Of a DNA stretch of 64,000 nucleotides, positions 12,376 to 33,875 are shown one piece after another. Below the pieces are notes generated by a model. That model did not search any database. It was not told the DNA's origin and was given only the letters and a program-made list of their open reading frames with translations. Within the stretch, counting starts at the first letter, position 1. Each line of letters opens with the position of its first letter. This DNA is from Deltaproteobacteria bacterium (lineage in GTDB: Bacteria > Desulfobacterota > Syntrophobacteria > Syntrophobacterales > Syntrophobacteraceae). The stretch lies in the NCBI GenBank assembly GCA_021777755.1, contig JAJYDE010000018.1, forward strand, positions 1-64,000. Reading direction: 5' to 3'. A program made the position numbers and the translations under genes.

Positions 12376-12389
12376 GCGTGGAGCGCGCG

Positions 12390-14575: not shown

Positions 14576-14584
14576 AAATGGAGA

Positions 14585-14854: not shown

Positions 14855-14981
14855 ATCCTGCTCCTGTGGATGGTGGTCGATTACGACGCATGCATCAATC
14901 GAGGTACGGATCGTACTCCAAGGTGTTTTTGCGTGTCAACAACCAAACAAATCCGAATCGCGAAGGCAAAGGAGAGAGCGA

Positions 14982-15749: not shown

Positions 15750-15750
15750 C

Positions 15751-17401: not shown

Positions 17402-19597
17402 GTGGAGAAAAAAGGGTACGTCGAAGAAGTGGCCGCAAAGCTGATAGAGCAATTGAAGGCGGGAACGGCGCCATGGCAGAAGCCTTGGGCTGCCGGGGTG
17501 CCGAACTCCTTTGCGCCGACAAATCCGGTAACCGGCAAGAGATATCGGGGAGCCAACTCGATCCGGCTCATGTGCGAGAACCGCGATGATTCGCGCTGGA
17601 TGACCTACAAGCAGGCGCAGGAGTCGGGTTGGCAGGTGAAGAAAGGCGAAAAGGGAACCAGAATCGAATACTGGAAGACGAGCGAAACTCGCCAACGCTT
17701 GGATGCCGTTGGAAAGCCCGTGCTTGACGACGAAGGCAAGGCCGTCGTGGACGAGGTGAGCTATGAACGTCCGCGGGTCTTCCGGGCGACGGTGTTCAAC
17801 GGATCGCAGATCGAAGGCATCCCTGTCGAAAAGGTCGAGGGAAAAACGCAGACGTGGGACCCGTCGCCGATTGCCGAAAGAATCCTTGCAGCATCGGGGG
17901 CGTCGATAAGCCACGATCAGCACGACCGCGCGTTTTATCGTCCGGGAGACGATACGATCCATCTGCCCGGGAGGAATCGGTTCGAGGAGGCCTCGGCGTA
18001 CTATGCGGTAGCGTTGCACGAGTTGGGCCACTGGACCGGACACGAATCGCGACTGCACCGGGATCTGTCCCACCCTTTCGGGAGCCAGGGATACGGGCGC
18101 GAAGAGCTTCGGGCCGAGATAGCGAGCCTCATGCTGGGCGACGAATTGGGCATCGGACACGATCCGGGACAGCACGCGGCATACGTGGACTCATGGATCG
18201 AGGTGTTGCGAAAAGATCCCTGCGAGATTTTCCGGGCTGCGGCTGCGGCCGAAAAAATCAGGGATTTCGTGGTGGAGCTGGAGCTGGAACGAGAAAGAGA
18301 GAAAGGCGTAGTCATGGAAGCGGAAAGGCAGCAGGAAGCCGGCATGGCGAGAAAACTCGATGAACGGGCGGAGAAGCAATCCTTGTCTACTCCAAGTGAG
18401 CGCGTTTGGCTGCAAGTCAAGTACGAGGATCGCCTGAGTGCTAAAAGCGCCGGGGCGAAATGGGATCGAGAAGAAAAGCGATGGTACGCCGGGCCGGACG
18501 CCGACATGAAGATACTCGAGCGGTTCCTGACGGAAAATGTACCGGTCCAAGGCCTCGCGATAACACCGAGAGAGGAGTTCGCGGCAACGCTCGAGAGCAT
18601 CGGCGCGATAGTAGACGGAGAGCATCCCGTAATGGACGGCAAACCCCACCGCATTAGGTGCGAAGGAGACAAGCAAGGCGAACGCGCGGGTTTTTACGTC
18701 GGTTTCCTGGACGGGCGTCCGAACGGATATTGCAAAAACAACCGTACGGGCACCGAACTCAGATGGAAGGCCACGGGTCATCGGTTGGCCCCGGAGCAAA
18801 AAATCGCGCTCCAGGCACAGGCCGAGCGAAGGAGAATCGATCGGGCAAAAGAAACGGAAGAAAGGTATGAACTCGCGGCCGAGCGAATCGAGAGGCAGAT
18901 CAAGGGCTTGAGCAAGCCGGAGCGCAAGACCCCCTACATGGAAAAGAAGGGTATCGCGATTACCGACGGGGTCCTGACGGAAGCCTCGGGGAAGGAGACC
19001 TGCGTGCCGGGCCATGACGCGGAAGGAAAAGTCTGGACGATGGAATACATCCAGGAAGACGGCCGGAAGCGGTTCGCCAAGGGAAGCCGGAAGGAGGGAT
19101 GTTTCCATCCGATCGCAGGGATGGCGGATTTGGCGGCCGCCGATGTTCTCGTCGTATGCGAGGGATACGCGACGGGAGTATCGCTGGAAGAATGCTTACG
19201 GGCCGAAGCAAGCGTCGTGTCGGCGTTCGATAGCGGAAATCTCATTCACGTGGCGAAGGCCCTGCGGGAAAGATTCCCGGACAAGATGATCGTGATTGCG
19301 GGAGACGACGACCGACGTTTGGAGCGCACGAAAGGGGTCAATCCGGGAAGGATCCACGCCGAGCAGGCTGCGGAAGCTGTCGGTGGCAGAGCGGTGTTTC
19401 CCGTTTTTGCGCCGGGAGAAGAAGATTTGACGGATTGGAACGACCTTGCGAACGGGAGCGCCCTTGGAAAGGACGGGGTGAAACGCCAGATCAACTTCGC
19501 GGTGATGGGAGCGTTGGTGGAAAGAAAGGCGGCAATGGAGCAACAACAGCAAGAACGGCGGCAAGATCCGATGCGCGGTCGAGGTTGGAGCCGATGA
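17402..19597 (+). CDS. traC: TraC-type primase with ArdC and toprim domains
   Basis: A 731-residue protein of the RP4 TraC type. Residues 1-125 are the ArdC ssDNA-binding domain (TAPWQKPWAAG, NPVTGKRYRGANSIRLM). A zincin domain follows with HELGHWTGHESR (about 202-213). A DUF5710-like block (VWLQVKYEDRLSAKSAGAKWD) precedes a toprim domain with VLVVCEGYATGVS, AFDSGNL and IVIAGDDDR. RP4 TraC makes primers for the transferred strand and is shipped to recipients; ArdC proteins can also blunt restriction. It is shorter than the long RP4 form (1061 residues). Start GTG 17402 with GGGAG upstream; it opens the traF-pil operon. Confidence 0.9.
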   Translation: MEKKGYVEEVAAKLIEQLKAGTAPWQKPWAAGVPNSFAPTNPVTGKRYRGANSIRLMCENRDDSRWMTYKQAQESGWQVKKGEKGTRIEYWKTSETRQRLDAVGKPVLDDEGKAVVDEVSYERPRVFRATVFNGSQIEGIPVEKVEGKTQTWDPSPIAERILAASGASISHDQHDRAFYRPGDDTIHLPGRNRFEEASAYYAVALHELGHWTGHESRLHRDLSHPFGSQGYGREELRAEIASLMLGDELGIGHDPGQHAAYVDSWIEVLRKDPCEIFRAAAAAEKIRDFVVELELEREREKGVVMEAERQQEAGMARKLDERAEKQSLSTPSERVWLQVKYEDRLSAKSAGAKWDREEKRWYAGPDADMKILERFLTENVPVQGLAITPREEFAATLESIGAIVDGEHPVMDGKPHRIRCEGDKQGERAGFYVGFLDGRPNGYCKNNRTGTELRWKATGHRLAPEQKIALQAQAERRRIDRAKETEERYELAAERIERQIKGLSKPERKTPYMEKKGIAITDGVLTEASGKETCVPGHDAEGKVWTMEYIQEDGRKRFAKGSRKEGCFHPIAGMADLAAADVLVVCEGYATGVSLEECLRAEASVVSAFDSGNLIHVAKALRERFPDKMIVIAGDDDRRLERTKGVNPGRIHAEQAAEAVGGRAVFPVFAPGEEDLTDWNDLANGSALGKDGVKRQINFAVMGALVERKAAMEQQQQERRQDPMRGRGWSR

Positions 19598-20121
19598 AAA
19601 CCACAAAAATCATATGCGGCGCGATATTGGCGATGACCGGATTGCTGGCTTTGTTGGGCGTTGCGGGTGCGCGCCTGAACACTACCTCAAGCCTGCCCGA
19701 AGGACTTTACTGGACCACCGGGGCGAAACCGCAAAAGGGGGACATCGTAATATTCTGCCCTCCTCGGTGCGCGGCCATTCGACTGGCGCGAGCCAGGGCG
19801 TATCTGGCCGGCGGTTTTTGCCCGGGAGGAAACGGGACGATGATGAAGCAGATCGCGGCCGTAGCCGGTGATCGAGTGGTGATTTCCGACTGCGGGGTCC
19901 GAGTCGGCGGAATTTTTTTGCGAAATAGCGAGCCCTTGAGCGAGGACCCGAAAGGCAGGCCCCTGCCGCGTCTGAGGGGCGATTTCACGCTGAAGAGCGG
20001 ACAAGTTTTGTTGATGTCGCAATATAACCCTCTTTCTTTCGACGGTCGGTATTTCGGGCCGTCTGCCGCCTCGGCCGTCAAAAGCGTGGTGAGGCCGGTG
20101 TACACATGGAATGTCAAATGA
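19594..20121 (+). CDS. traF: TraF, S26-family conjugative signal peptidase
   Basis: A 175-residue membrane-anchored protease. An N-terminal helix (about 5-25) precedes NTTSSLPEGLYW, which holds the catalytic Ser, and TMMKQIAAVAGD, which holds the expected Lys partner. In RP4 TraF removes the C-terminal end of TrbC and closes it into a ring. Here the gene lies 11 kb from trbC, between traC and the pil genes. The ATG overlaps the traC stop and the end overlaps the next gene. Confidence 0.92.
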   Translation: MKTTKIICGAILAMTGLLALLGVAGARLNTTSSLPEGLYWTTGAKPQKGDIVIFCPPRCAAIRLARARAYLAGGFCPGGNGTMMKQIAAVAGDRVVISDCGVRVGGIFLRNSEPLSEDPKGRPLPRLRGDFTLKSGQVLLMSQYNPLSFDGRYFGPSAASAVKSVVRPVYTWNVK

Positions 20122-21155
20122 CGAAAAGAATTGCCACACTGGGATTGGTTCTTTTGTTGACGGGTTGCGCGGGCGAGCAGGCGTCGCCGCCCCGATCCCA
20201 TGGCGTCACCGCATGCTATACGGTCCGCGACGATGCCGGACTCGGCGTGATCCGCGCGGTCGGTCTTAACGGAAACACGATCATTCAGATGCGGGACAAT
20301 TCGGACGGGGGCCTTGAGATTCTGACCCCGTCCGGGCGCGCGGTGAAATTCGACAGGTCCGGGCGGCACTACCTCACCGTGAAGGGTTTGCATCATGAAC
20401 TCGATGTGGTGGTTCTGGCGCATCCCGGAATGTCGAGCATCACGGCCGAGGGGATTGCCGCAACGCCTTCGGTGCCCATCGTTGCATCCTCCGGTTCCAC
20501 GATGAAAAGGCCGCAGGCCACGCGGGAACTTGCGCCCGACGAGCTTGCGCCCGAGGTGCCGGACTCGGCCCTCGATTCAGTCGCCAGTGGCGCAAAGACG
20601 GAGCCGGCCCGGCCCGTTCCGGACCAAGGGCATCCCGGCAAGAACGATCTTGCGCAGGCCGATGCGGTCCCGTCGTCCCCGCCCGCCGTCAATGCCGGGA
20701 AAAAGAGCGCAACCGCTGGGATCGAAAAGGAACCGAGCCTGCCAAAGGCGGGGGCGGACACGCATAAACCGGCATCCGGCAAAGGCAAGTCGGATGTTCC
20801 CGCTATCGCGAATGCGTCGAAGAGCCATGCGCCCGACGCGATACCGACGCCTGGAGCGAGGGATGTGATCCCATCTCCCCGGATCGTCCCCAGCCGAAAG
20901 GAGACCTGGTCGCTTTGCGCCAACCGGTCGATCGTCGAGCAATTGCAAGAGTGGAGCAAACGAGCCGGATGGAGACTCGTATGGCAGGCGGGAGACTGGA
21001 TAGCGGCAAGCGATGAGAGTTTCACGGGCGATTTCGGAGACGCTCTGTCGGATGTCGTGAAAGCTTTGGCATCCGCAGGCGCAAACATACAGCTGGTGTT
21101 GTACAGCAACAACGTTGCCGTGGTCGGGACAAAGGTGGAAGTTACTTTGCGATGA
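20118..21155 (+). CDS. pilL: PilL/TcpQ-like lipoprotein
   Basis: A 345-residue exported protein. The signal peptide ends at LLLTGCAG, a good lipobox (Cys about residue 17). A folded N-terminal part is followed by a long Pro/Ala/Lys-rich linker (about 120-250). The C-terminal 85 residues, with WSLCANRSIVEQLQEWSKRA, GWRLVW and FGDALSDVVKALA, match the TcpQ/PilL domain that helps secretin localisation in type IVb pili. It overlaps traF by four bases and opens the pil genes. Confidence 0.75.
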   Translation: MTKRIATLGLVLLLTGCAGEQASPPRSHGVTACYTVRDDAGLGVIRAVGLNGNTIIQMRDNSDGGLEILTPSGRAVKFDRSGRHYLTVKGLHHELDVVVLAHPGMSSITAEGIAATPSVPIVASSGSTMKRPQATRELAPDELAPEVPDSALDSVASGAKTEPARPVPDQGHPGKNDLAQADAVPSSPPAVNAGKKSATAGIEKEPSLPKAGADTHKPASGKGKSDVPAIANASKSHAPDAIPTPGARDVIPSPRIVPSRKETWSLCANRSIVEQLQEWSKRAGWRLVWQAGDWIAASDESFTGDFGDALSDVVKALASAGANIQLVLYSNNVAVVGTKVEVTLR

Positions 21156-21165
21156 GGAGAATGCG

Positions 21166-22794
21166 ATGAGAAATGAAGCCGCACCCAACGGTGTCCGACG
21201 ATTATTTTGCGCCGTGGCCGTCATGTGCGCACTGACTTCCTGCACGTCCTTCGACGAGGCGAACAGGATGACGACCGCCACTACGGCCAAAATCGAAAAA
21301 TCGAAGATGCCCGGCAGTTCCTCCGTTGTGCGAAAGCTGAACGCCCCGTATCTCATGGGACCGGCCGTAAAACCCGAAAAGCGGGTGGTCCCCGCCGTTT
21401 TGACGCAGGAAATAACCATCGTTTCGGCGGTTCCCATGACGCTGCGGGAAGTGGCCGGGCAAATCACGCTCATAACTTCCATCCCCTGCAACGTTCAGGA
21501 TTCGGATGCGGGAAAACAGGCAACGACAACGGCGAGCCGGCCACCGGCAGGCGATCGATCGGATCTCGGCCGAATGCTTTCGGACCTTGCCGACGTTTCC
21601 GGCGGTGCCGGAAATGCTGGAATCGTGCTCCATTACAAGGGGCCGCTCTCGGGTCTACTCGACGTGCTCCGCGCACGAAGCGGCTACTACTGGAAGTACC
21701 GGAACGGGAACCTGGATTTTTTTCGCACCGAGACGAAAACCTTCCTCGTGCCGGCCTTCGCGGGTAATACGCAAAGCACGAACAGCATCATGAGCAGTAA
21801 TGGATCCAGCGGAACGAGTACCGCGGGAGTCGGCGCGGCGGCACCGGCGGGCGCTTCGGGGGGAAGTGGTGGAGGAGGAGGTGCCTGTTCGATCACCGCC
21901 ACCAGCACCATAGATACCTGGAAAAACATGGAAAAGGTCGTAAAAACCGTTGCCGGCGGAGCGAAAGTTTTCGTCGATCCCTCGCTCGGGTCCGTGACCG
22001 TGACGGGGACCCCGCCTCAGGTGGACGCGGTTGGAGAATGGGTGGCGCAACTCGACCGGGAACTTTCGGGGCAAATCGCGCTGAAGGTGCATGTATACGA
22101 CGTGGCTCTCACCAACGAGCAAAACTACGGGATCAATCCCACCATAGCATTCAACGAATTGGCCGGCCGTTACGGAGTGGCTGTCCAAGGCGTAAACGCC
22201 CCCGCCGTGCTGTCCACCCAAGCCTCACCCCTGACCGTTGGAGCGAGCATCCTGTCGGGACAGTGGAAAGGGACCGGGGTCGTTTTGCAGGCACTGGCCA
22301 CGATGGGAAAAGTCGTTTCGAGCTACTCGAGGTCCGCGTGCACGATGAACGGCCAGCCCGCAGCCATCCAGGTGGCCACGAACACGGGCTACCTGGCGTC
22401 CACATCGACCATGCTGGCCGCGAACGTCGGATCCTCGGCATCCCTTACGCCCGGCATGGTCACCACCGGGTTTACCGCGATGATAACGCCTCGGATCATC
22501 GGGGCGAAAATCTATCTCGGGATCAATATGACGATTTCGAGTTTATTGAGCATGCAAACCATCACGTCCGCCGGGCAGTCGATACAGACGCCGCAAACGG
22601 CGTCATTCGCCGAACAGCAGAGCGCATCCCTCAAGTCGGGCGAAATCCTGGTCTTGACCGGTTACCAGGAGAAGAACGCGTCCGTGACTAAAAATGGCGT
22701 CGGGAGTCCGAATTTTCCACTCCTGGGCGGAGGGGCCGACGCAACGACCGGAAACAGGATGATCGTCATAACGGTTACAGCCACAACCATCTAG
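21166..22794 (+). CDS. pilN: PilN, outer-membrane secretin lipoprotein
   Basis: A 542-residue secretin of the R64 PilN type. The signal peptide with LTSCTSF marks a lipoprotein. An N-domain region (MTLREVAGQITLITSIPCN and LLDVLRARSGYYWKYRNG) is followed by a Ser/Gly-rich insert (about 200-235), the VDPSLGSVTVTGTPPQVD fold and the secretin barrel with FTAMITPRIIGAKIYLG and SLKSGEILVLTGYQEK. The ring lets the thin pilus cross the outer membrane. Start ATG 21166 has GAGGAG six bases upstream. Confidence 0.92.
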   Translation: MRNEAAPNGVRRLFCAVAVMCALTSCTSFDEANRMTTATTAKIEKSKMPGSSSVVRKLNAPYLMGPAVKPEKRVVPAVLTQEITIVSAVPMTLREVAGQITLITSIPCNVQDSDAGKQATTTASRPPAGDRSDLGRMLSDLADVSGGAGNAGIVLHYKGPLSGLLDVLRARSGYYWKYRNGNLDFFRTETKTFLVPAFAGNTQSTNSIMSSNGSSGTSTAGVGAAAPAGASGGSGGGGGACSITATSTIDTWKNMEKVVKTVAGGAKVFVDPSLGSVTVTGTPPQVDAVGEWVAQLDRELSGQIALKVHVYDVALTNEQNYGINPTIAFNELAGRYGVAVQGVNAPAVLSTQASPLTVGASILSGQWKGTGVVLQALATMGKVVSSYSRSACTMNGQPAAIQVATNTGYLASTSTMLAANVGSSASLTPGMVTTGFTAMITPRIIGAKIYLGINMTISSLLSMQTITSAGQSIQTPQTASFAEQQSASLKSGEILVLTGYQEKNASVTKNGVGSPNFPLLGGGADATTGNRMIVITVTATTI

Positions 22795-22808
22795 GCAAGG
22801 AGTGCGGC

Positions 22809-23435
22809 GTGAAGCGCGTGTATCGTTTGTTGCTGTTGTATCTTTTGTCCGCGTCGGCGCTGTTGCCCGCGTCCGCCTGTCCGGCGGCTTCCACACCGCC
22901 CGGCCAGTCCGTGAAAACCTCAGCTCCGCCCGCACAGTCGGGGCATGCGGACTCCGAACCCGAACAGCAAGGGGGCTGGACCCCCGCGCAGACGGTTGCC
23001 ACGGCATCGGAGCTTCAGCGACAAATCGAACTGCTGAAGCTGAAAGCTCAAATAGCGAAACTGGAAAAAGAGATTCGCGAAGCCGACAAGCCCGTGCAAA
23101 CGAAGAGGGTGGAGCCCGACGCTTCGCTGTCGGGCTCGTATTTTTCGCCGGGTTTCACCGGCGGGGCAATCAGGAATGGAAGCGGCGGAAAGTCGCTGCC
23201 GCAAATACTGAACATCGTCGGACATCCCGGACATCTCGTGGCGACACTGGTGATGGCCGGCGGCGGGACCATTACGGTTTCAGGCCCCGGCGCGGTCTCC
23301 GACGATGTACGGATACTCGCGATATCGGACCAGGGTGTCGGGGCTGTCGTGAACGGAAAGACGGTGCAACTGCCCTTTTATCGCAAGCAAAAACCTTCGC
23401 GAGGGTTTTTCCAGATGTCGGGAAGGAGGCGTTAG
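22809..23435 (+). CDS. pilP: PilP-like pilus assembly protein
   Basis: A 208-residue exported protein. The signal peptide ends near ASACPAAS. A Pro-rich stretch and a helix (SELQRQIELLKLKAQIAKLE, about 75-95) are followed by a compact beta domain with LPQILNIVGHPGHLVATLVM and GGGTITVSGPG. These features and the position after the secretin fit R64 PilP, the periplasmic partner of PilN and PilO. The stop directly precedes pilO. Confidence 0.8.
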   Translation: MKRVYRLLLLYLLSASALLPASACPAASTPPGQSVKTSAPPAQSGHADSEPEQQGGWTPAQTVATASELQRQIELLKLKAQIAKLEKEIREADKPVQTKRVEPDASLSGSYFSPGFTGGAIRNGSGGKSLPQILNIVGHPGHLVATLVMAGGGTITVSGPGAVSDDVRILAISDQGVGAVVNGKTVQLPFYRKQKPSRGFFQMSGRRR

Positions 23436-24632
23436 ATGCCGGTAACGGTAAGGGTGGGAGGCAAGGACTATGTTGCCGGATTGCATTGGGAACTGGTCGA
23501 GGTTGACAGGTTGGGGGCAGTGCGTGCGCGTCTGAAAAAGGATCTCGGATCAAAGGGGATCGTTTGTCACCGAAGGCACCGCGAATCCATTTCGCTCGGA
23601 TGGGCGGACACGGGCGGCGAGAACATAGCCGGCAATTCGCTCGCGCTCGCCATCGCGGATTGCCACGCCGAGCCGTGGATGGGAATTTTCGAGCTGCGGG
23701 AGGGACTCTGGTGGTACATCGCGATCAGCAAGGAAAAAGAGATCGTCTCCTCCAGTGACAAGGTCGGAACGAGGGCCGAGGTCGAACGGTTGATGTCCGA
23801 AAACCAGGGCCTCGGTGAATGGAGCGAAGTACTCGAAGGTGCCAGCGAGGACCTCGAAAGCCGGCTGGAAGACGCTCGAAAGCAAGACACGAAGTTGCAC
23901 AGGGTGCGCCGGTTGCAGGGGGACGCGCGCAGAAGGGCGATCGTGGTTGCGGCCGGGGTCTTCATGCTCGGCGGGGCCGTTGCCGGGTGGCAGTGGTACA
24001 GCCACCGGGCACAGGCTGAACGAGAACGGGAACGAATGATTCGGGAGAAGGAATCGGCGGCGGCACGACTCAAGGCTATGCCGTTGCCTTGGAGCATACC
24101 TCCCGATGGTGGGGAACTGATCGGGCAATGCCGCAAGACGGTGTCGCATTTGATGCTCGACGTAAAAGGCTGGAAACCCGCCGAGGCGACCTGTTCGAGT
24201 TCGGGGGCGACCGTGGTATGGAAGCGCGACGATTTCGGAAACGCGGCGGATGCTCCGGGCGTTCTCAGCACCACAGGTGACGGATCGTCGAGCTTTCATC
24301 CGTGGAGCTTGCAACACGCCGGCGGAAAAGCCCACGACGCGAAACCGTATGCGACGATCCAACGCGGCATGTACGCGATCGCGCAAAAAGATTTCGTCGG
24401 TTTCAGGCAGGCGGGTGCGGTTCCGTTCGGTGCCCGCCCTGGTGCCGGCGCGGACGCGAAGGCGCTTGAACCGCTCTATGTCAAGCATGTTTATGTCTTG
24501 CAAGTCAAGGGCATGTGGCAAATCGCGCCGTTTTTGCGCATACCGACCGCGAGGATCGAATCCATCAGGATCGTTGGTCTGGCGGACGAACGGAGAACCA
24601 CCGTGAGTCTGGCAGTTTGGAGCAAACCATGA
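23436..24632 (+). CDS. pilO: PilO-like pilus assembly protein
   Basis: A 398-residue bitopic inner-membrane protein. An N-terminal cytoplasmic domain (with WWYIAISKEKEIVS) precedes one membrane helix near residues 170-190 (AIVVAAGVFMLGGAVAGW), a charged coiled coil, and a periplasmic domain with C-terminal VWSKP. This matches the PilO2/PilO family of type IVb pili. GGAAGGAGG ribosome-binding site; the end overlaps pilQ. Confidence 0.8.
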   Translation: MPVTVRVGGKDYVAGLHWELVEVDRLGAVRARLKKDLGSKGIVCHRRHRESISLGWADTGGENIAGNSLALAIADCHAEPWMGIFELREGLWWYIAISKEKEIVSSSDKVGTRAEVERLMSENQGLGEWSEVLEGASEDLESRLEDARKQDTKLHRVRRLQGDARRRAIVVAAGVFMLGGAVAGWQWYSHRAQAERERERMIREKESAAARLKAMPLPWSIPPDGGELIGQCRKTVSHLMLDVKGWKPAEATCSSSGATVVWKRDDFGNAADAPGVLSTTGDGSSSFHPWSLQHAGGKAHDAKPYATIQRGMYAIAQKDFVGFRQAGAVPFGARPGAGADAKALEPLYVKHVYVLQVKGMWQIAPFLRIPTARIESIRIVGLADERRTTVSLAVWSKP

Positions 24633-26323
24633 TGATTGCCGAGTCGATCAGACATTTTCTGGGTCGGGCGGATAATGGTAATGGGCAGCAGACCCATGTT
24701 GCCACACGCGAGCAATTCGGCACCCCTCAAGTGCCCGACCGATTGAGGGAGGCCGTAAGCGTGTCGGTGGAACAGGCGGATGCGAAGGTCGTGCGCGTGG
24801 ACGCGCTCAATTCCTATCGTGGAGACATGTTCCTCCACAGTTATCTGGTTGCCCTCAAGCGTGAGGGATGGCTCGCGGAGGTCTCCTACCTCACGGGACC
24901 CGAAATCCGCAAACTCAAGGAGTCACGCAGCGCGGATGCCCAAGCCGGGGACGAAACGCTGCAAAGCCTGGTAATCAATGATCTCAAAACGATTTTCGCG
25001 GATGCCGCCAAGGTCGCGGCGAGCGACATACACTTCGACGTGACGGACCGGCAGGATTATCTGCAAGTGCGATTCCGGGTCGATGGAGGACTGGTCGCAT
25101 ACCAGGACTATCCCATGCAAAAAGCCGCAAGTATGCTGCGCGCGCTGTACGGAATCATGGCCGATGAAACCGACTACGACTATTTGAGACATGAGGACCA
25201 GGCGGGACAAATCCAGGGGGCGGACTTCCTGCCCGACGAAATAGGATCGATGCGGCTTCAACGCGGACCGCAGGCCGGCGGCGAGTTCGCCGTCCTGCGA
25301 CTCTTCATGCGCGAAAAACGGAAGGTCGAAGACGACTTGTCTCCCGATGACGCGCTCGAAGCGTTCGTTTCAGCCTGCCGGAGGTACGGCTACACCCGCC
25401 GGCAGACCCTGGCTCTGAGTCGGGCGGCACGCACGACGAACGGCGCGACGATATTTTCGGGCACCACCGGCTCGGGGAAGTCCACGGCGCTCAAAGTAAT
25501 CTTGACGCATCAGGCGATGATGTACCCCGAAAAGTCCTTCTTTTCGATCGAAGACCCGGTTGAATTCCGCATCAAGCGCGCACGGCAATTGTCCGTCGAT
25601 CAGCGCAAGGAGGAGACGCGAAGCGCTGCTTGGCTGCGAAAATTCCGGGTCGCGATGCGTAGCGATCCGGATGTCATCATGGTGGGGGAGCTGCGCGACG
25701 AAGCAACGGCCCAAACGGCCTTTCAAGCCGTGCTCTCCGGGCATCAACTGTGGACCACCACGCACGCCAAAGACGCTTTCTCCGTTTTGACGCGGCTCGT
25801 AAACGATTTTCACCTGAAAGCGGAGCATCTCATAAACGGGAACCTCCTGGTCGCCCTGGTCAATCAGAGCCTTTTGCCCGCGCTTTGCCCGAAATGTTCG
25901 ATCGGCTGGAACAGCGCGGGCAATCTACTCGACCATGATTCCCGACGCATAATCCAATATTGGAAAGATTCCGGCGTGCCGGTCGGCGGGATTCGCGTGC
26001 GCAACCCCGAAGGTTGCGACGAATGCTGCCGCGCCGGCGTCAAAGGTGCCGCGGGCGTAAAAGCCATTCCGGGGTTCAAGGGCCGGGCACTCGTGGCCGA
26101 GGTCGTGGAGATGACCAACGAGCTTACCGCGGATTTGGCGCGGGATTTTTACGATACGGTGCGCCGGTACAGAACCTCGGCCAACCACTTTTCCAAACTC
26201 ACTCATGCATTGCAGCGGCTGCTGCGCGGTGAGATAGCCCCGAGGTCGGTGATATCCGACGTGGGGAATCTCCCCGAACGGATAGACGACCAAATGGCCA
26301 TTATCGAACGCGAGGATCGATAA
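24629..26323 (+). CDS. pilQ: PilQ, type IVb pilus assembly ATPase
   Basis: A 564-residue GspE/PilB-superfamily ATPase. Walker A is GTTGSGKST (about residues 278-286), the Asp box FFSIEDPVEF, Walker B SDPDVIMVGELRD and the His box LWTTTHAKD. A zinc-binding region with CPKC and CDECC lies near residues 415-470, as in assembly ATPases. It drives pilin polymerisation at the inner membrane. The start overlaps pilO, and the stop overlaps pilR. Confidence 0.94.
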   Translation: MMIAESIRHFLGRADNGNGQQTHVATREQFGTPQVPDRLREAVSVSVEQADAKVVRVDALNSYRGDMFLHSYLVALKREGWLAEVSYLTGPEIRKLKESRSADAQAGDETLQSLVINDLKTIFADAAKVAASDIHFDVTDRQDYLQVRFRVDGGLVAYQDYPMQKAASMLRALYGIMADETDYDYLRHEDQAGQIQGADFLPDEIGSMRLQRGPQAGGEFAVLRLFMREKRKVEDDLSPDDALEAFVSACRRYGYTRRQTLALSRAARTTNGATIFSGTTGSGKSTALKVILTHQAMMYPEKSFFSIEDPVEFRIKRARQLSVDQRKEETRSAAWLRKFRVAMRSDPDVIMVGELRDEATAQTAFQAVLSGHQLWTTTHAKDAFSVLTRLVNDFHLKAEHLINGNLLVALVNQSLLPALCPKCSIGWNSAGNLLDHDSRRIIQYWKDSGVPVGGIRVRNPEGCDECCRAGVKGAAGVKAIPGFKGRALVAEVVEMTNELTADLARDFYDTVRRYRTSANHFSKLTHALQRLLRGEIAPRSVISDVGNLPERIDDQMAIIEREDR

Positions 26324-27387
26324 TGAATTTGCTTGGTCTGGAATACAAGGTTTTTGCGGGCGGTGACGCGCTGAACCGCCTGTTGGAGCGAATTTCCGTA
26401 CAGTTGCAATACGGGCACCGTGTGCTGGATGCGGTGGAGGAACTCTTGCACCGGGCGAAAAAACGAGGCATTGCGGGCCGAGCCGAAGCACTCATTCTCG
26501 AGCATTGCCGCACCATGCTCTACCGCGGCGGCAATGTCGCCGAAGGGCTCTCGCCCTGGCTGTCGCCCATCTGCGCGAGTTTACTCGCAAACGGGGCGAC
26601 GTCGGGCAAACTTCCCGAAGCGCTCAACCTGGCGGCAAGACTCAACCGACTGACCACGGGCATGACCAGGGAGGCACTTTCCGGTCTTGCGGAACCCGTC
26701 ATGTCCACGTTCCTCCTTTACTACTTTGCGGCCTATATTTCTCGCCAAATAACTGCGTCCCTCGGCCCCATGATAAAGGGGCATGTCGGCACATTGGCGG
26801 CCATAACGATGGGTATCGGGCGCATCGCTCAATCGAGCGCCATCTGGTTCGTGTTTTCGGCTGTCGTGTTGTCGATAGGAGTGGTGTCCTGGTCCATGCC
26901 GCGTTGGTGTGGGAAAGCCAGGATGGTACTGGATCGGGTGCTGCCCCCATATACGATTTACAGACGGCTCCAAGGGGCCGTTTGGCTGATATCTTACGCC
27001 GCCTTGATCGAATCGGGCATGTCCGTTACGAGCGCCATCCGGCGGATGCGGCAAACCGCATCCCCGTGGCTCGACGAACGATTGCGCGCCGCGCTTTCGG
27101 AGCTTGGGCGCGGATCCGATATCGGCAAAGCCCTGCGACTGTCCGGCCATACTTTCCCGAGCGACGACATTATCGCGGACATGGAGGTTTTCTCCAGATT
27201 CCCGAATCTCCAGGACAAACTCATGGTGCTTGCGGAACAGAGCCTGTCCGATACGAGGGAACGAGTGAGGGTGACCAACAAGATAATCTCGTCGGCGTCG
27301 AAAGCGGCCGTGTCGATAGTGTTCCTTGTAATGATGTTCGGGCTCATTTCAATAATTTCTGGAGTCGCCGCCTCGGCCGGACTCTAA
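26323..27387 (+). CDS. pilR: PilR, GspF-like platform protein
   Basis: A 354-residue inner-membrane platform protein of the GspF/PilC superfamily, R64 PilR type. Cytoplasmic helical domains alternate with hydrophobic segments near residues 125-145, 175-200 and a C-terminal helix (VSIVFLVMMFGLISIISGVA). The typical GSDIGKALRLSG and FPSDDIIADMEVFS motif is present. It couples PilQ movement to pilin extraction. The ATG overlaps the pilQ stop. Confidence 0.92.
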   Translation: MNLLGLEYKVFAGGDALNRLLERISVQLQYGHRVLDAVEELLHRAKKRGIAGRAEALILEHCRTMLYRGGNVAEGLSPWLSPICASLLANGATSGKLPEALNLAARLNRLTTGMTREALSGLAEPVMSTFLLYYFAAYISRQITASLGPMIKGHVGTLAAITMGIGRIAQSSAIWFVFSAVVLSIGVVSWSMPRWCGKARMVLDRVLPPYTIYRRLQGAVWLISYAALIESGMSVTSAIRRMRQTASPWLDERLRAALSELGRGSDIGKALRLSGHTFPSDDIIADMEVFSRFPNLQDKLMVLAEQSLSDTRERVRVTNKIISSASKAAVSIVFLVMMFGLISIISGVAASAGL

Positions 27388-27399
27388 AAGGAGAAAATC

Positions 27400-27945
27400 A
27401 TGGAAAAAATGATCACCTGGGGATTTTATTTCATTTTGACGATCGCGCTTCTGAGCGCCGCCATCATCCTCTACCAGAAGGCGCAGGCATCGTACAAGGA
27501 GACGGCCGCCATGAGCGAGGTGACCTCGATCGTATCGGGGGCCGAGGCGCTGTACTCCGGGCAACCCGCTTACACGGGGCTCACAAACACTTTGATGATC
27601 AACGCGGAGAAAATCCCGGATAACATCATTACGGACGCGGCGTCGGGAACCATCACGAATCCGTGGGGAGGGCAGATAGTGGTAGCCTGCGACGATGCGG
27701 CGCCCGCTTCCGGGCTCAACACTCCCTCGCCCGCTTATTTCGACGTGGATCTGTCCGGACTGCCCAAAGGTGCCTGCATCCAACTGGCGACGGGTTTTTC
27801 CACCGGGAACTTCCAGGGAGTGAACATCAACGGCACCATATTCCCCTCCATCGCCAACGGCGGAGCGCAGATCACGCCGGCACAGGCCGATGCGGCGTGT
27901 TCCAACGGGTCCAACGGGAACACTCTCAGTTTTGCTTTCAATTGA
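27400..27945 (+). CDS. pilS: PilS-like major pilin
   Basis: A 181-residue type IVb pilin. The hydrophobic helix starts at once (MITWGFYFILTIALLSAAII) and continues into a helical spine, followed by a globular part with NPWGGQIVV, as in PilS pilins, and two Cys near the C-terminus likely to form the usual disulfide. The normal basic leader before the cleavage Gly is almost absent: only seven residues precede Gly8, with no cluster of Lys/Arg and no Glu at +5. AAAGGAG precedes the ATG. Confidence 0.85.
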   Translation: MEKMITWGFYFILTIALLSAAIILYQKAQASYKETAAMSEVTSIVSGAEALYSGQPAYTGLTNTLMINAEKIPDNIITDAASGTITNPWGGQIVVACDDAAPASGLNTPSPAYFDVDLSGLPKGACIQLATGFSTGNFQGVNINGTIFPSIANGGAQITPAQADAACSNGSNGNTLSFAFN

Positions 27946-27965
27946 GCTGGTCGAAAGGAGAAACA

Positions 27966-29372
27966 GTGAACAGACCCGTATATTTCGTTGGGGGCAACAA
28001 GGGCGGGGTGGGTAAATCCCTGATCGTCAAAGGGATCGTTGACCGACTTTTCGCGCGCGGAGATGGCGTGATAGTCGTTGAAGCCGACATGCAGAACCCC
28101 GACGTGTGGACAGCCTGCCAGGGTTTGGCCACCACGGTGAAGGTGGACCTTGATCGAGCGGACGGCTGGATGAGGCTGGTGGACGCATGCGACGAGCATC
28201 CCCGATACCCCGTCGTAGTCAATACGGCTCCGGGCCTGAATCGGGGTGCCAGGGCGCACGGGAATCTCCTCGGGGGGGCTCTCGCCGAGCTTGATCGACG
28301 GCTGATCGTCTTTTGGCCGCTCGGAAAGGATGACAAGGGTATCGGCATGCTCGAAGAATTCATGCTGCTTTTGCCCGAAGCGGAATTCCATCCAATGAGA
28401 AACCTCTTTTTCGGAAATATCGACGAATTCGAGTACGACCAGTCGGAACTACGAAAAGCTGTTGAATCGGCCGGATGGTTGTCGCTCACATTCCCTCGCC
28501 TGGCAGGCGCCATTACCGATCAAATCGAGCGTTGCGGAGGCGCTGTCGATTGCGGATGGGCGGAACGGCCTCTGGGCGCACGCCGCGAAGTGTCGCGGTG
28601 GCGGCAGGGAATAGATGAAATATTGATAGCTGTTGACGAGTGGCCCGACCGCATGAATTCGAAGGCGGTCGATACCGCTCCTCGCAAAGCTGTGGCCGGA
28701 GCGGAGGCAAAACAGCGGACGACATCGGAGAACAAATCGCCCGAATTGGCGATGATCGCAAGTCCGGCCCGAACTCTTGAGCAAGCGGAAATCGACGAAA
28801 GTCGGAACGGGACTTCGCACATTTTTGAAGAAGGAACGTCCGATGTTGTGCAACTCCTCGAATCCGACACCCCTAAGACGGAGGAGATCGAAACGCCGCC
28901 GGAAGAACAAACTGTTAACCCGGCGCTGGAAGATCCGCCCAAAATGGAATCCTTCGAAGCCGAGCAGGAAAGTCGCCGAATGGAGGAGGAATTTTTCGGA
29001 TTGACCTGCCGGCTCAAGGGAATCGAGGCTCAAATCCGCATACACGATTCGATGAAGCCGTCCGCCGGATACCACACCACGATGTCGGAGGACCAAGCCG
29101 CGCGGATGCTGCCCTCGTGGCAAGCACGCATGGACGAATTGAGCCGCGAGGAGGCCGATCTGTCGAGACCTCTCAAAAGCCTCCTGGATCGGATGGAAAC
29201 CGAAGGCCCCAGAGTCGGTTCGGATTTGGTGAATACGGCGCGGCGCCTCATAGACCTCATGGACGCAAGGGACGCTGATCCTGTCGAACCGGTGGAAAAG
29301 GCCCCGGCCGTTGTACAAGCCACGAAAAGCCAGGCGACATTCAACAAGGCACTGGCGCTCGAAGATATCTGA
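27966..29372 (+). CDS. MinD/ParA-like ATPase inside the pilus operon
   Basis: A 468-residue protein. Residues 1-230 form a deviant Walker A ATPase: FVGGNKGGVGKSLIVKGIVD, VVEADMQNPDVW and VVVNTAPGLN. The C-terminal half (about 230-468) is acidic, Pro/Glu-rich and then helical, with no known domain. Such ATPases place large assemblies in the cell; TadZ of tad pili and related proteins mark the pilus pole. R64-type pil operons are not known to me to include one. The start is GTG 27966 with AAGGAG five bases upstream. A role in placing the thin pilus or the transfer channel is inference. Confidence 0.75.
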   Translation: MNRPVYFVGGNKGGVGKSLIVKGIVDRLFARGDGVIVVEADMQNPDVWTACQGLATTVKVDLDRADGWMRLVDACDEHPRYPVVVNTAPGLNRGARAHGNLLGGALAELDRRLIVFWPLGKDDKGIGMLEEFMLLLPEAEFHPMRNLFFGNIDEFEYDQSELRKAVESAGWLSLTFPRLAGAITDQIERCGGAVDCGWAERPLGARREVSRWRQGIDEILIAVDEWPDRMNSKAVDTAPRKAVAGAEAKQRTTSENKSPELAMIASPARTLEQAEIDESRNGTSHIFEEGTSDVVQLLESDTPKTEEIETPPEEQTVNPALEDPPKMESFEAEQESRRMEEEFFGLTCRLKGIEAQIRIHDSMKPSAGYHTTMSEDQAARMLPSWQARMDELSREEADLSRPLKSLLDRMETEGPRVGSDLVNTARRLIDLMDARDADPVEPVEKAPAVVQATKSQATFNKALALEDI

Positions 29373-29415
29373 TGATGGCAAACAGGAAGCGACGGAAGGG
29401 AAGGAGGCGTAGGCC

Positions 29416-29922
29416 GTGTGGTTGATGATCGAAACAGGTCTGTGCATTGTTTTGTACCTCGCCGGTGCCGGGGCCTACCAGCATTACGCGGTGCAGATGC
29501 GGCGGGAGGCGGCGCTGGAGCGGGTCGAAAGCCAAACGGCCGAAGTGTGGTACGAAATGGGGGAAGCCATGCATGCTTACGCGAAAGCCCTTGGAAGCGG
29601 CATGCCCGACACGGTGACCTGTCAGAGCCTCCAGGCCGGCGGATACCTTTCGACATCGTTTGGCGGCGGCAACTGTACCGATCCGACCGGAACGCAGTTG
29701 ATGGCTACCGCGACCGCGACGTCCTGGGCCGTCTCGGCATCCGGGGTGCCTTCCAGGGATTTTCTGGCAAGATTCGGGATATCCGTGGGGAATGATTCCT
29801 GGAAGGCCTTCCTGACGGCCGTGGCCGTCGATTTAAACAGCATGAGGCAGAACGATTTCGTGGCAATCGTCGCACCGGCTGCCCAGGGTTGGACTCTGTT
29901 CGAGCGCAATGCAACGAACTGA
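29416..29922 (+). CDS. PilV-like minor pilin, short
   Basis: A 168-residue pilin-like protein starting at GTG 29416 after GAAGGAGG. An N-terminal hydrophobic helix (MWLMIETGLCIVLYLAGAGAY) with Glu at position 6 continues into an amphipathic spine. The rest resembles PilV N-terminal domains: TCQSLQAGGYLSTSFGGGNC, then TDPTGTQLMATAT. There is no basic leader and no cleavage Gly before the helix. It lacks the C-terminal adhesin part of PilV. It is paralogous to the next gene. Confidence 0.7.
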   Translation: MWLMIETGLCIVLYLAGAGAYQHYAVQMRREAALERVESQTAEVWYEMGEAMHAYAKALGSGMPDTVTCQSLQAGGYLSTSFGGGNCTDPTGTQLMATATATSWAVSASGVPSRDFLARFGISVGNDSWKAFLTAVAVDLNSMRQNDFVAIVAPAAQGWTLFERNATN

Positions 29923-29977
29923 GACCAAACCGGTCGGCGATCGAGTTCTCCGCGAGACGTGGATCAAGGGATAGAGC

Positions 29978-31324
29978 ATGGCGTGGTTGATCGAAGTTTT
30001 CATGGCGATAGTACTGATAGCGAGTGGCATGGCGACATATAGCGAGGTCGCGATTCACGTGAACCGGCAGGGAAACGTCGCGCACCTGGCGGCGCAGACC
30101 GCCGCGTTTTGGACGAACATCTCTTCGGCTGCCAACGCATACATTCAGGCCAACGGTTCGAGTCTTGGATCCGGCGGCGTGCTGAGTTGCTCCAACCCGC
30201 AGTTTTTCGCCTTGTTGGGCAATTCGACCTCCGGTTGTACCGATCCTTTGGGCCAAACGCTTGCCGTGTATGTACCCTCGTCGTCCCAGGGCGGCCCGAA
30301 TTCCTACGTCGTGCTGGCCACGGCCCCTCCCTCCCCGGCAGTTATCCAACACTACGGTCTCGGGACGCACTCCGCGAGTTCGCCCGGTTCACCAACCCCC
30401 TGGGAATCGTTCGCGATGCAGGCGGCCCGCGAAATCACGGTGCGCGGCACATCGTCAAATACGGGCTTGGTGCTGCAAACGGCGGTAAACAACCAGGGAT
30501 ATCCCATGCCGCATCCGGGGGCGCTGATGGTTCCGGATTCGCAACAGGGATACGCAACGACTCTGGCCGGATACTTCCCCCAGGAGGGGGCCGATCCCCA
30601 GGCGGTCCCGCCCGTGTACGGCTACGACGGCTACGCTCTCGTAATGTCCGCGCAGGCCGGCACGGCCCTTCCAGGGCCGTGCGACCTGACGCTTTCCGTC
30701 GCGCCCGAGGGCATCGTCTACGGGCAATCGACCACAGTGAGCTGGTCGCAGCCCGACGCGACGTCGTGCGATCTCAAATACACCATGAATGGCACAACCG
30801 GGGACTTCCCCGGCCTGTCGGCCAGCGGGACCCGAACATACACGCCCGCGCAGGCCGGGGTTCTAACCGTAACCGCTTCATGCTCCGGCTCTGCCGGCGT
30901 ATGCCGGCAGAGCGCCACAGTTGCCGTCAATTTCACCGTCACTCTCGAGCCGGAGAGTTCCAGGCTTGACTGCCCTCCAAGTACAATTTCAGTCCCCAAC
31001 GGGGACCCCTGGATATTTGCGGACACTTCCGGGGCTGCCGGGGTGCAGTGTGTGTGGACCATAGATGCGGGTTGCGTCGGATTCCCTCTCCAGGAAATCG
31101 CCACCACTTCCACTTCCGGTTTAAACCTACTGGATATGCGTCCGTATGAAAGTGTTGTGAACGCTTGCAACGGCAGCGAACCGGCAATGATCGAAACGGT
31201 TGCTTGCACATCCGCGGACGGACTTCTATCGACCGTAGGGATCGAACATATATCGCTCCTTCCAATGCCGTTTACCACACCTACCGTCTATTGCCCGGAA
31301 TACCAATCACCGGGCATCAGATAA
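29978..31324 (+). CDS. pilV: PilV-like tip protein with C-terminal beta domains
   Basis: A 448-residue protein. Residues 1-215 are a PilV-like minor pilin: helix MAWLIEVFMAIVLIASGMAT, then SCSNPQFFALLGNSTSGCTD. Residues about 228-312 form an Ig/PKD-like module (VSWSQPDATSCDLKYTMNG, TYTPAQAGVLTVTASC). A further Cys-rich domain follows to the end. R64 PilV selects recipients through its variable C-terminus. No shufflon recombinase gene or sfx-like repeat set follows, but two perfect dyads lie at the module borders (30660-30682, 30888-30913). Again there is no prepilin leader. Confidence 0.75.
   Translation: MAWLIEVFMAIVLIASGMATYSEVAIHVNRQGNVAHLAAQTAAFWTNISSAANAYIQANGSSLGSGGVLSCSNPQFFALLGNSTSGCTDPLGQTLAVYVPSSSQGGPNSYVVLATAPPSPAVIQHYGLGTHSASSPGSPTPWESFAMQAAREITVRGTSSNTGLVLQTAVNNQGYPMPHPGALMVPDSQQGYATTLAGYFPQEGADPQAVPPVYGYDGYALVMSAQAGTALPGPCDLTLSVAPEGIVYGQSTTVSWSQPDATSCDLKYTMNGTTGDFPGLSASGTRTYTPAQAGVLTVTASCSGSAGVCRQSATVAVNFTVTLEPESSRLDCPPSTISVPNGDPWIFADTSGAAGVQCVWTIDAGCVGFPLQEIATTSTSGLNLLDMRPYESVVNACNGSEPAMIETVACTSADGLLSTVGIEHISLLPMPFTTPTVYCPEYQSPGIR
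30660..30682. repeat. perfect DNA dyad inside pilV, left
   Basis: A 10-bp perfect stem (30660-30669 with 30673-30682) with a 3-base loop. It falls at the border between the pilin part and the Ig-like module. Confidence 0.8.
30888..30913. repeat. perfect DNA dyad inside pilV, right
   Basis: An 11-bp perfect stem (30888-30898 with 30903-30913) with a 4-base loop. It falls at the end of the Ig-like module, 206 bp from the left dyad. The two dyads differ in sequence. Confidence 0.8.
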
Positions 31325-31338
31325 TTAGTGAGACCTGT

Positions 31339-31965
31339 ATGTACGTAATGACAATCCTTTTGTGCGTTCTAGCCTTGATGACATCCGCCTTGACCTCCCT
31401 TAACGAGGCGGCCGATGCGGCAAGAAAGCGTGCGGTCGCGTGCAGGATCGCCATCGAGGCGCAGGAGTTGAGAACGTTCGCCCTTGCGGCGCTGGGGTTT
31501 GCCATGCAGACGCCCATCGGGTCGGGCACGGTGCGTACCATCGATGTGGGAATGCTCTCACCGTCGTCGTATCCGCCGCCCTCCCCGTTATCCCCCTTCG
31601 GGGAAGCCTGGTGCGGGTACTACACGCGCGATTCGGCGACAGGCAACTACGAGCTGGCGGTATGGCCGGGCAACTACGCGGGCGGATCACCCTCCGGAGT
31701 GACGCAAACTCTGGAGGGGCTGTCGAAACAGTATGTCGCAATCCAAGTCCTGGATGAATTGACGACGATGCAAAATCGTCTGGGAAATAGCGGCTTTCTG
31801 CCGGGTCTTTCGAATGTTTCGGGGGCGCAAATCTACCTGGGCACAGCGGCAGGGGAAGTTTTGACGACCCTCGGGGGCACCGCGACAGTAATCGTATCGT
31901 CGGCGCAGGGATCGGGCGTTGTTTCGCAAGAGCCGGTCCTGCTCGTTATCTGGCCGGGCTCGTGA
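31339..31965 (+). CDS. pilin-like minor protein
   Basis: A 208-residue protein. It opens with a hydrophobic helix (MYVMTILLCVLALMTSALTS) with no leader, then an amphipathic helix with EAADAARKRAVACRI and a Gly/Ser/Pro-rich globular part. Length, topology and position after two PilV-like genes suggest a third minor pilin. Sequence motifs are weak. The upstream site (GTGAG) is poor; ATG 31348 is an alternative start. Confidence 0.55.
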   Translation: MYVMTILLCVLALMTSALTSLNEAADAARKRAVACRIAIEAQELRTFALAALGFAMQTPIGSGTVRTIDVGMLSPSSYPPPSPLSPFGEAWCGYYTRDSATGNYELAVWPGNYAGGSPSGVTQTLEGLSKQYVAIQVLDELTTMQNRLGNSGFLPGLSNVSGAQIYLGTAAGEVLTTLGGTATVIVSSAQGSGVVSQEPVLLVIWPGS

Positions 31966-31980
31966 TAGACGGGGAATCCG

Positions 31981-32958
31981 ATGATCAAGCAACAATTTTC
32001 GTCCATGTGGCTCTACGAAAATCCGGCTCAATGCCGGTATCGTCCATTGGAACCCCGCGACATGCAACTTCTGTCCTTCGGGGACGAGGACCGCGAAGAA
32101 CTGGGGCAATTGTACCGGGAATTACGGGATTACCAGTTGTCGCGCTGCCGTATCGGGGACGTTCCTTGTCGCGTCCAAAAGGTGCGCACGTCGTACGGGT
32201 TGTCATTCGCGATAAGGGCTCTGGTCGTCTCTCCTCGGCCGCTGCTCGAATTGGGGGTCCCGAAAGGCGTGCGGGACATCCTGATGATGAAAGGGAAAAT
32301 TCCGGGTCTGGTTTTGGTGTGTGGCGCGATGCGTTCGGGGAAAACCACCATCGCGGCAAGTTTGGTATTGGAAAGGATTTCCTCCTACGGCGGCGCGGCG
32401 CAAATGATCGAGGAACCAACGGAAATGGAATTGGATGGCTGTTACGGAGGAGGTTTGATCCAGCAGATCGACGTGCATGAGTCGGGCTCCGGCCTGCGCA
32501 TCGAAGATCGCGTGGCCACGCTCGCGGCCGACTCCCTTCGCTCCGATGTGGACATTCTGTTCATCGGGGAGGTTCGGCGGCCGGCGGATGCCCGTGCCGT
32601 GATCGCAGTGGCGGCCATAGGCGCCACGGTGATTACCACCATCCACTCGACCAATTTGGAAACGGCCGTAGAGCGGCTCATCTCTCTGGCGGCCGCACAC
32701 TCCAATTCGGATGAAGCCGCCGCAATGGTCGCAAACGCTCTTTTCGCGGTGATCCACGTAAGTCTTGCTCCTACCACGATCAACACGCCGGGCGGCAACG
32801 AACTGCGGCAGACTCTGCGCGTAAGACCGTGCTTTTTCGTCGGCCCGGACGCCGACGGCTTGCGCGGCAGCGTTCGCAAACAGCATTTCGCTCAATACGT
32901 AAACCAGGTGGGCGAGATGCAAGTGCAAAAAATTATAAACGGGAGATCTATTCTATAG
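31981..32958 (+). CDS. PilT/DotB-like secretion or retraction ATPase
   Basis: A 325-residue hexameric ATPase of the GspE/PilT/DotB superfamily, smaller than PilQ and without its zinc region. Walker A is VCGAMRSGKTTIAAS (about 117-131), the Asp box is altered to QMIEEPTEMEL, Walker B is SDVDILFIGEVRRPADA and the His box VITTIHSTNLETA. A second ATPase next to PilQ suggests pilus retraction or a separate step. R64 pil operons have only PilQ, so this is an addition. Confidence 0.85.
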   Translation: MIKQQFSSMWLYENPAQCRYRPLEPRDMQLLSFGDEDREELGQLYRELRDYQLSRCRIGDVPCRVQKVRTSYGLSFAIRALVVSPRPLLELGVPKGVRDILMMKGKIPGLVLVCGAMRSGKTTIAASLVLERISSYGGAAQMIEEPTEMELDGCYGGGLIQQIDVHESGSGLRIEDRVATLAADSLRSDVDILFIGEVRRPADARAVIAVAAIGATVITTIHSTNLETAVERLISLAAAHSNSDEAAAMVANALFAVIHVSLAPTTINTPGGNELRQTLRVRPCFFVGPDADGLRGSVRKQHFAQYVNQVGEMQVQKIINGRSIL

Positions 32959-33001
32959 CGGGCGCGGACCAAACGTTCGCGCCGGAAACGGAGAAGATCA
33001 A

Positions 33002-33577
33002 ATGCGCAAGAGGGCGGCAAGATGCATGGTGGTGGGGTGCATCGCAATCATGTCGTACATTCCGGTGCCGGCGCGGGCGGGGATTCGGAAGGACGTGCGC
33101 GCCTACATAGCGAACAAGAGGACCGTGGACTGGGAAACAGCGTCGCGGATCGCGGCGGCGCTTGTCGCAAGTGCGCAAAGGCTTGCCCGCAGCCATGGGG
33201 AAAGGGACGAGATGTTCTGGCTGGGCGTCCTTGTCGGTATCGCCCAGACCGAATCGAATTTCTCGCCGGTCGCAGTATCCGGTAAGGACGCCCTGGGCGT
33301 CATGCAAGTGCACTGGCCGACTTGGGGCAGGAAGATGGAGGCCTACGGCTTCGGGCGCGAAGCGCTCTTCGATCCCGCCATCAACGTGCTGTGCGGCTCG
33401 GCGATCTACTCCGATTGCGTGTCCGGGGCGGGTGAAGACGTTGTGGGAGGACTTTACCGATATTATGGAGCCCCCGACCGGGGATACGCTGTAAAGGTCC
33501 TCCGACACGCGGTTGAATTTACCGTAGCGCAGAAGCGGATGAATGCATCGCAAGATGCGAATCGACAAACGGAATGA
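33002..33577 (+). CDS. pilT: PilT-type lytic transglycosylase
   Basis: A 191-residue exported muramidase of the SLT family (R64 PilT, not the retraction ATPase of the same name). The signal peptide ends near VPARAG. The catalytic Glu is in IAQTESNFSPVAVSGKDALG (about residues 81-100), followed by GVMQVHWPTWG and YYGAPDRGYAVKVL. It opens peptidoglycan for pilus or channel assembly. The stop overlaps ATG 33574, in frame with the next small gene. Confidence 0.9.
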   Translation: MRKRAARCMVVGCIAIMSYIPVPARAGIRKDVRAYIANKRTVDWETASRIAAALVASAQRLARSHGERDEMFWLGVLVGIAQTESNFSPVAVSGKDALGVMQVHWPTWGRKMEAYGFGREALFDPAINVLCGSAIYSDCVSGAGEDVVGGLYRYYGAPDRGYAVKVLRHAVEFTVAQKRMNASQDANRQTE

Positions 33578-33855: not shown

Positions 33856-33875
33856 CGCCGAAAGCGGAGGGGAAA

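Follow-up and report, generated by a model that had tools for sequence, protein, structure and literature searches.

Predicted leaderless type IVb pilins in the thin-pilus operon of a Trb-type conjugative element and in related clusters

How might a conjugative element build a type IV pilus when its pilins carry no leader and its pil operon encodes no prepilin peptidase? The question is raised by a 64,000-nucleotide stretch of contig JAJYDE010000018.1 (assembly GCA_021777755.1, a Deltaproteobacteria bacterium of the Syntrophobacteraceae), called here the window, which begins within such an element; in the genome (4.2 Mb, 103 contigs) it lies on contig C69. A single region ending at a tRNA-Thr contains both an IncP-like transfer set (TraK/TraM, Trb, TraI, TraG) and a full R64-type operon for a thin pilus (Table 1). 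The Trb set, the TraI relaxase and the TraG coupling protein identify an IncP-like conjugative element (mating-pair formation type T, MPF_T/Trb), and the presence of PilO2 (PF06864), PilS (PF08805), TcpQ/PilL, the PilN secretin, PilQ and PilR in one cluster identifies an R64-type (type IVb) thin pilus. The favoured reading, held with a probability of about 0.75 from sequence comparison, is that this IncP/Trb-type element builds its R64-type thin pilus from leaderless pilins, the subunits being made already mature.

The window PilS begins MEKMITWGFYFILTIALL; its start has a strong Shine-Dalgarno sequence and is separated by four codons from an in-frame stop. For the PilV-like protein, with the N-terminus MAWLIEVFMAIVLI, only one codon separates the start from a stop, and the other two pilin-like proteins of the window are likewise leaderless. 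A class III signal peptide (a leader ending in Gly or Ala, a hydrophobic run and Glu5) was found in none of the window pilins. Neither pilU nor another prepilin peptidase gene was found among the operon proteins, and the sole Peptidase_A24 match in the genome lies on another contig, C96. The first-pass annotation, which had read the region as IncP-type conjugation joined to an IncI-type thin pilus, overlooked both the missing peptidase and the missing leaders. A single element does carry both gene sets, and profile matches bear out its naming of the TraC-like, TraF-like, PilL, PilN, PilP, PilO, PilQ, PilR and PilS proteins. Its PilV-like gene stands as a leaderless pilin-like open reading frame (ORF) at the expected position. 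The PilV-like and the two further small pilin-like proteins have no Pfam or NCBIfam match and no BLASTp match in the compared loci, and are named by position and N-terminus.

The same state is found well beyond the window. Annotated members supplied hidden Markov models with which 53 loci were scanned; 40 of these have an R64-type PilQ of at least 330 bits, and 38 clusters were kept. The 13 loci without such a PilQ, some of them with a leadered PilS, were dropped, as were L190 (a duplicate of L128) and L143 (no PilS called); near-duplicates among the 38 are L154/L155, L131/L147, L140/L146, L182/L184 and L179/L180. Leader state was labelled by eye and then motif-tested; the PilS and PilV models contain the window's own sequences, and its scores against them are not independent. 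PilS is leaderless in 20 clusters and leadered in 18. Searched over the longest ORF, the class III motif is absent from all 20 PilS and all 18 PilV of the leaderless set, and present in 17 of 18 PilS and 10 of 12 PilV of the leadered set. The two leadered-set PilV without the motif are those of L149, which does have an N_methyl match, and of L137, a cluster from Enterobacter that is atypical in both pilins and was nonetheless counted as leadered. PilS and PilV agree in leader state wherever this is testable.

In plasmid-borne clusters, leaderless PilS proteins begin MEGIL, MSEIL, MQDLM, MSELV, MDGIL, MDEIM or MDSIL, and leaderless PilV proteins MEAIL, MSEVL, MGDLL or MDAIL; textbook leaders occur elsewhere, as in pA506 (KQAG^FGALE) and Methylovorus (QAG^VTLME). 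Among the leaderless pilins (PilS and PilV together), 26 of 38 have an in-frame stop no more than 8 codons before the start. Type IVb leaders are 13-30 residues long (PMC9045228), so that such genes have no room for one. To note, PilS (6236-6748) and PilV (7720-9027) of L137 share the odd N-terminus MQVTDAQIGWG in place of the class III motif, and this Enterobacter plasmid also has a weak A24 match.

The distribution of the trait follows descent. In a PilQ+PilR tree (LG+G4, 493+351 columns; support as SH-aLRT/UFBoot), the window and 15 leaderless loci, from Beta- and Alphaproteobacteria and from further genomes, group at 98/97, and the 15 without the window at 96/98; throughout this clade pilP lies 5' of pilO wherever the order is readable. 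A second leaderless group, L126, L127 and L128 (100/100), comes from two genomes of the window's phylum. Its sister is the leadered cluster on Nitratidesulfovibrio vulgaris pDsulf-L2-2 (99.8/100); the leaderless group retains the N-O-P-Q order, as judged by the gaps between genes. The third case is L150, from a genome (G580) that also holds the leadered L149 as a separate locus. Parsimony requires 3 changes of the trait on this tree, whereas 1000 shuffles of the labels never required fewer than 8 (mean 12.9). About three independent losses of the leader are thus probable, with both the number and the direction of changes provisional, since the rooting outgroup is weakly supported.

The identity of the leaderless PilS proteins as pilins is independent of their N-terminus, since 14 of the 16 scanned match PF08805 (10 of 16 also match Bundlin) and a profile of leaderless sequences alone retrieves BfpA, PilS, TcpA and the CFA/III pilin in the PDB. 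The first position of this profile aligns with residue 1 of the CFA/III pilin filament chain. The pilin globular domain is thereby recognised through both families and the PDB matches, the fold itself being modelled poorly. An acidic residue stands within the first 6 positions of 31 of the 38 leaderless pilins; in the clade of 16 loci it is mostly the second or third residue. The pilins of L126 and L128 have Glu at position 5, the initiator Met counted (MNMMEV, MSLLET, MKLIEV), and the start of L128 PilS (MSLLE) is identical to the first five residues of the CFA/III pilin chain. In the pilins of L179 and L180 (G790), an initial Met-Gly directly adjoins the hydrophobic run and there is no early acidic residue, the Met-Gly possibly being a two-residue leader.

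The hosts provide a further line of comparison. An A24 peptidase was found in 14 of 15 host genomes searched, including 7 of 7 that hold only leadered clusters. The exception, G188 (100% complete, 1% contamination), carries two leaderless clusters, L126 and L127. Its genome has no Peptidase_A24 match and no N_methyl match, hence no canonical leadered pilin; the remaining 7 of the 8 hosts of leaderless loci have N_methyl matches. The lack of A24 in G188 is not odd for its family, since 14 of 39 sampled genomes (8 of 32 near-complete ones) are without a match, 25 of 39 and 24 of 32 having one. This pattern fits peptidase independence, as predicted from sequence, through one genome.

A mechanism can be proposed from these elements. 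Mature type IVb pilins can start with Met (PMC9045228), so a translation start at that point would copy the processed product, and the subunit would be born mature. The place of mature residue 1 would be taken by the initiator Met or by the residue that follows. The short N-terminus would act as an uncleaved signal anchor, with the N-terminus inside and the globular domain in the periplasm, and PilQ, PilR, PilO, PilP and PilN would assemble the filament without a prepilin peptidase step. Such a pilus would presumably keep mating cells joined until DNA transfer by Trb, and the benefit would be that it could form in a new host with or without a compatible prepilin peptidase. It is judged likely that such type IVb pili without prepilin processing are widespread in conjugative elements, their pilins translated mature, with the leader lost some three times and at least one bacterium free of the peptidase.

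Cleavage of the leader by the prepilin peptidase is treated as both ancestral to type IV filaments and definitive of them, and pilins are recognised by it. In reviews, the hallmarks of a type IV pilin are its class III signal peptide and the prepilin peptidase dedicated to it (PMC4471445, PMC10191384), a strict definition from which the window pilins depart in lacking the signal peptide. A natural class that skips cleavage would, if confirmed, change this definition and explain the absence of peptidase genes from such loci, for which authors have assumed borrowing from other systems (PMC3984277, PMC6668835). It would allow asking which part of maturation assembly needs (a free N-terminus, methylation or Glu5), and conjugative elements would gain host-independent mating pili. 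Tools that search for class III signals would miss leaderless pilins. No description of such pilins was found in the literature searched, which did not extend to subscription papers, nor in the available parts of PMC4471445, PMC3984277, PMC6668835, PMC10191384, PMC6370655, PMC6232867, PMC9045228 and PMC8546353.

Several observations weigh against assembly of these pilins without a peptidase. An early acidic residue is missing from seven of the 38 leaderless pilins, and the first 8 residues carry a net charge of 0 to -2, with no positive charge to hold the N-terminus inside. AlphaFold run on the single PilS sequence gave a poor model, with a mean predicted local distance difference test score (pLDDT) of 46. 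Seven of the 8 hosts of leaderless loci have an A24 peptidase, G188 alone pointing to true independence, and there the missing match is an absence in a draft genome, not proof. The absence of pilU was considered as a marker of the leaderless state and rejected, as leadered plasmids lack A24 too: among 11 plasmid records it is found in one (Enterobacter), in 0 of 5 leaderless and 0 of 5 other leadered ones. Assembly without processing may nonetheless occur, as a prediction from sequence.

Among the alternatives, the one that survives best, though unlikely, is that a short N-terminal trimming persists, either by methionine aminopeptidase alone or by A24 acting on an ultra-short leader (Met or Met-Gly). 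The window PilV-like protein (M-AWLIE) would have Glu5 once Met is removed, the Met-Gly starts of L179 and L180 suit such a leader, and A24 is present in most hosts. Known leaders, however, are 6-26 residues long and end in Gly, archaea excepted (PMC4471445); in most leaderless pilins the hydrophobic run is not preceded by Gly, and an A24 match is absent from G188. It is rather improbable that the pilin-like proteins form no filament, being anchors or pseudopilins, and that the true leadered pilin is encoded elsewhere. The naming of the window's minor pilins is weak and the role of PilS is predicted from sequence, which would suit this proposal, yet PilS occupies the canonical place after pilR and matches PF08805, these proteins are the PilS homologues that the loci yielded, and G188 offers no canonical leadered pilin at all. 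That leaders exist and the starts have been misread, through a non-ATG start, a frameshift or misannotation, is very improbable: 12 of the 38 frames do stay open for more than 8 codons upstream, but no longest ORF among the 38 contains a class III motif, the other 26 are closed by a nearby stop, the chosen starts often have a Shine-Dalgarno sequence, and the leaderless state is conserved by clade.

With the type IV filament superfamily in general, the window pilus shares the ATPase, platform, secretin and pilin family, and with the thin pilus of R64/IncI1 (type IVb) and of its IncI2 relative TP114 a presumed role in mating pairs. According to the literature, R64 carries PilU, which cleaves its PilS, has the order N-O-P-Q (both PMC3984277) and pairs its pilus with an I-type transfer system, whereas the window cluster is without pilU, has the order N-P-O-Q and is paired with Trb. 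The conjugative type IVb pilus of PAPI-1/pKLC102 is like that of the window an R64-type pil cluster without its own peptidase, but has leadered pilins and MPF_G; PAPI-1-type PilS2 is cleaved by the host PilD (PMC3984277). C. necator pHG1 and its relatives C. oxalaticus T2, C. metallidurans Ni-2 and A. carolinensis pACP4.3 have, like the window, Trb/VirB beside pil, the order N-P-O-Q and leaderless PilS and PilV. These are other replicons, most compared pil proteins are 25-40% identical to those of the window, and unlike the window they have no ParA-like gene after pilS.

The leaderless pilins would make this a new variant of the type IVb pilus; the pairing of Trb with R64-type pil genes is already known. 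In tblastn searches, the window PilO retrieves 31 plasmid records and that of C. metallidurans 35. Annotated trb or virB genes adjoin the pil block in C. metallidurans Ni-2, Paraburkholderia, C. necator pHG1, pA506, Polaromonas JS666 plasmid 1, Methylovorus pMsip01, A. carolinensis, B. contaminans, Hydrogenophaga and C. oxalaticus; the partner systems of other pil clusters are Dot/Icm-like or MPF_G. In the window's phylum R64-type pil genes are rare: PilO matches occur in 2 of 97 relatives, the one above the cut-off being the window's own genome, and PilS matches in 3 of 297 genomes, own genome counted. In G260, of the same phylum, BLASTp gives the order traL-trbB-trbE-trbL-trbF-trbG-[pilL-N-Q-R-S-PilT-like]-trbI-traG-traF-traC-topo, the pil block lying inside the trb operon between trbG and trbI; in G188, traL and trbB precede the pil genes and trbE follows them (BLASTp). 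PilQ scans of genome contigs returned mostly PilB/GspE-type ATPases, none of at least 330 bits among the matches listed, and those of viral sequences had the same outcome; G041 and L145 have no R64-type PilQ. The proposal of the first-pass annotation, that IncP transfer and IncI pilus form a rare hybrid suited to its sediment host, is hardly tenable: both gene sets are present in the element, but the pairing is widespread on named plasmids and interleaved in G260, and the order is largely that of a known type. The role in liquid mating that it suggested is plausible by analogy with TP114, in which PilS and PilV matter when conjugation takes place in broth or gut but not when it takes place on a solid support (PMC9045228).

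Table 1. Features of the conjugative element in the window, with the matches or sequence readings on which they are named.
Feature	Position	Strand	Basis or remark
TraK-like protein (DUF5338)	3770..4390	+	PF17273 E 1.6e-10; start unchecked
TraM-like transcriptional activator	6117..6536	+	PF11657 E 2.2e-18
trbB, trbC, trbE, trbF, trbG, trbI, trbL	6693..16851	+	Pfam T2SSE, TrbC, CagE_TrbE_VirB, VirB8, CagX, TrbI, TrbL
Perfect 18-nt inverted repeat, 9-nt loop, between trbL and traC	17322..17366	no strand	
TraC-like protein (ArdC-N, MPTase, DUF5710, Toprim_3)	17402..19597	+	
TraF-like S26 peptidase	19594..20121	+	PF10502 E 4.1e-15; ATG with Shine-Dalgarno at 19594
pilL (TcpQ domain)	20118..21155	+	PF10671 E 1.9e-16; ORF opens 20106; ATG 20118 on the traF stop; start read from sequence
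pilN secretin	21166..22794	+	PF00263; TIGR02520 275 bits, just below cut-off 287.65
pilP, 5' of pilO	22809..23435	+	TIGR03021 49 bits, above cut-off 34.65
pilO	23436..24632	+	PF06864 E 3.3e-26
pilQ extension ATPase (T2SSE)	24629..26323	+	PF00437 E 2.7e-55
pilR platform protein (T2SSF)	26323..27387	+	PF00482 E 4.8e-18
pilS, leaderless major pilin, N-terminus MEKMITWGFYFILTIALL	27400..27945	+	PF08805 E 4.2e-24, Bundlin E 7.2e-19
ParA/MinD-like ATPase, KGGVGKS P-loop	~27966..29372	+	sequence reading; no Pfam match
Minor pilin-like protein, leaderless (MWLMIETG)	29416..29922	+	GTG start
PilV-like protein, leaderless (MAWLIEV)	29978..31324	+	named by position and N-terminus
Third pilin-like protein, leaderless (MYVMTILL)	31339..31965	+	no acidic residue near N-terminus
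PilT-like (presumed retraction) ATPase	31981..32958	+	PF00437 E 4.2e-14; TIGR01420 73 bits, below cut-off
Lytic transglycosylase (role of R64 PilT)	33002..33577	+	PF01464 E 8.9e-13
Type IA topoisomerase	33852..36305	+	PF01131 E 5.8e-109
NikA/TraJ-like accessory protein	36173..36679	+	PF21983 E 2.2e-17
TraI relaxase with LPD7	36679..38547	+	PF03432 E 3.5e-31
TraG coupling protein	38463..40367	+	PF02534 E 1.2e-124; likely start GTG 38544
tRNA-Thr(CGT)	40650..40721	-	3' end faces element

The element genes extend from ~3.8 to 40.4 kb, every one on the plus strand. In order they run TraK-like, ParA/TraL-like, TraM-like, TrbB, C, E, F, G, I and L, TraC-like, TraF-like and the pil genes, followed by the lytic transglycosylase, the topoisomerase, the NikA-like protein, the TraI relaxase and TraG, then the tRNA-Thr. 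The short overlaps noted in the first-pass annotation are real: with the chosen starts, 4 bases are common to traC/traF, traF/pilL and pilO/pilQ, and 1 base to pilQ/pilR. The pil operon is not continuous with trb, as a gap of ~550 bp between trbL and traC holds a small ORF and the inverted repeat, a candidate terminator or regulatory site. Insertion of the pil block as a recent unit with its own borders is rejected on the even GC content over 6-36 kb and the lack of framing repeats; the repeats of the region are short and mostly partial, and none frames the block.

A ParA-like ATPase gene separates pilS from the minor pilin genes, and the PilV-like gene is followed by one for a PilT-like ATPase. 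In Tad pili, TadZ positions the pilus, and by analogy the ParA/MinD-like ATPase, whose P-loop is intact, could do the same here. The tRNA-Thr is a possible integration site of the element; the 25-mer of its 3' end occurs once in the assembly, no second copy being found, and the left end of the element lies off the contig. Beyond the tRNA-Thr, a DsrD-domain ORF points to a sulfate-reducing host, and an imperfect tandem repeat (units of 12 and 35 bp) occupies positions 54097-54190.

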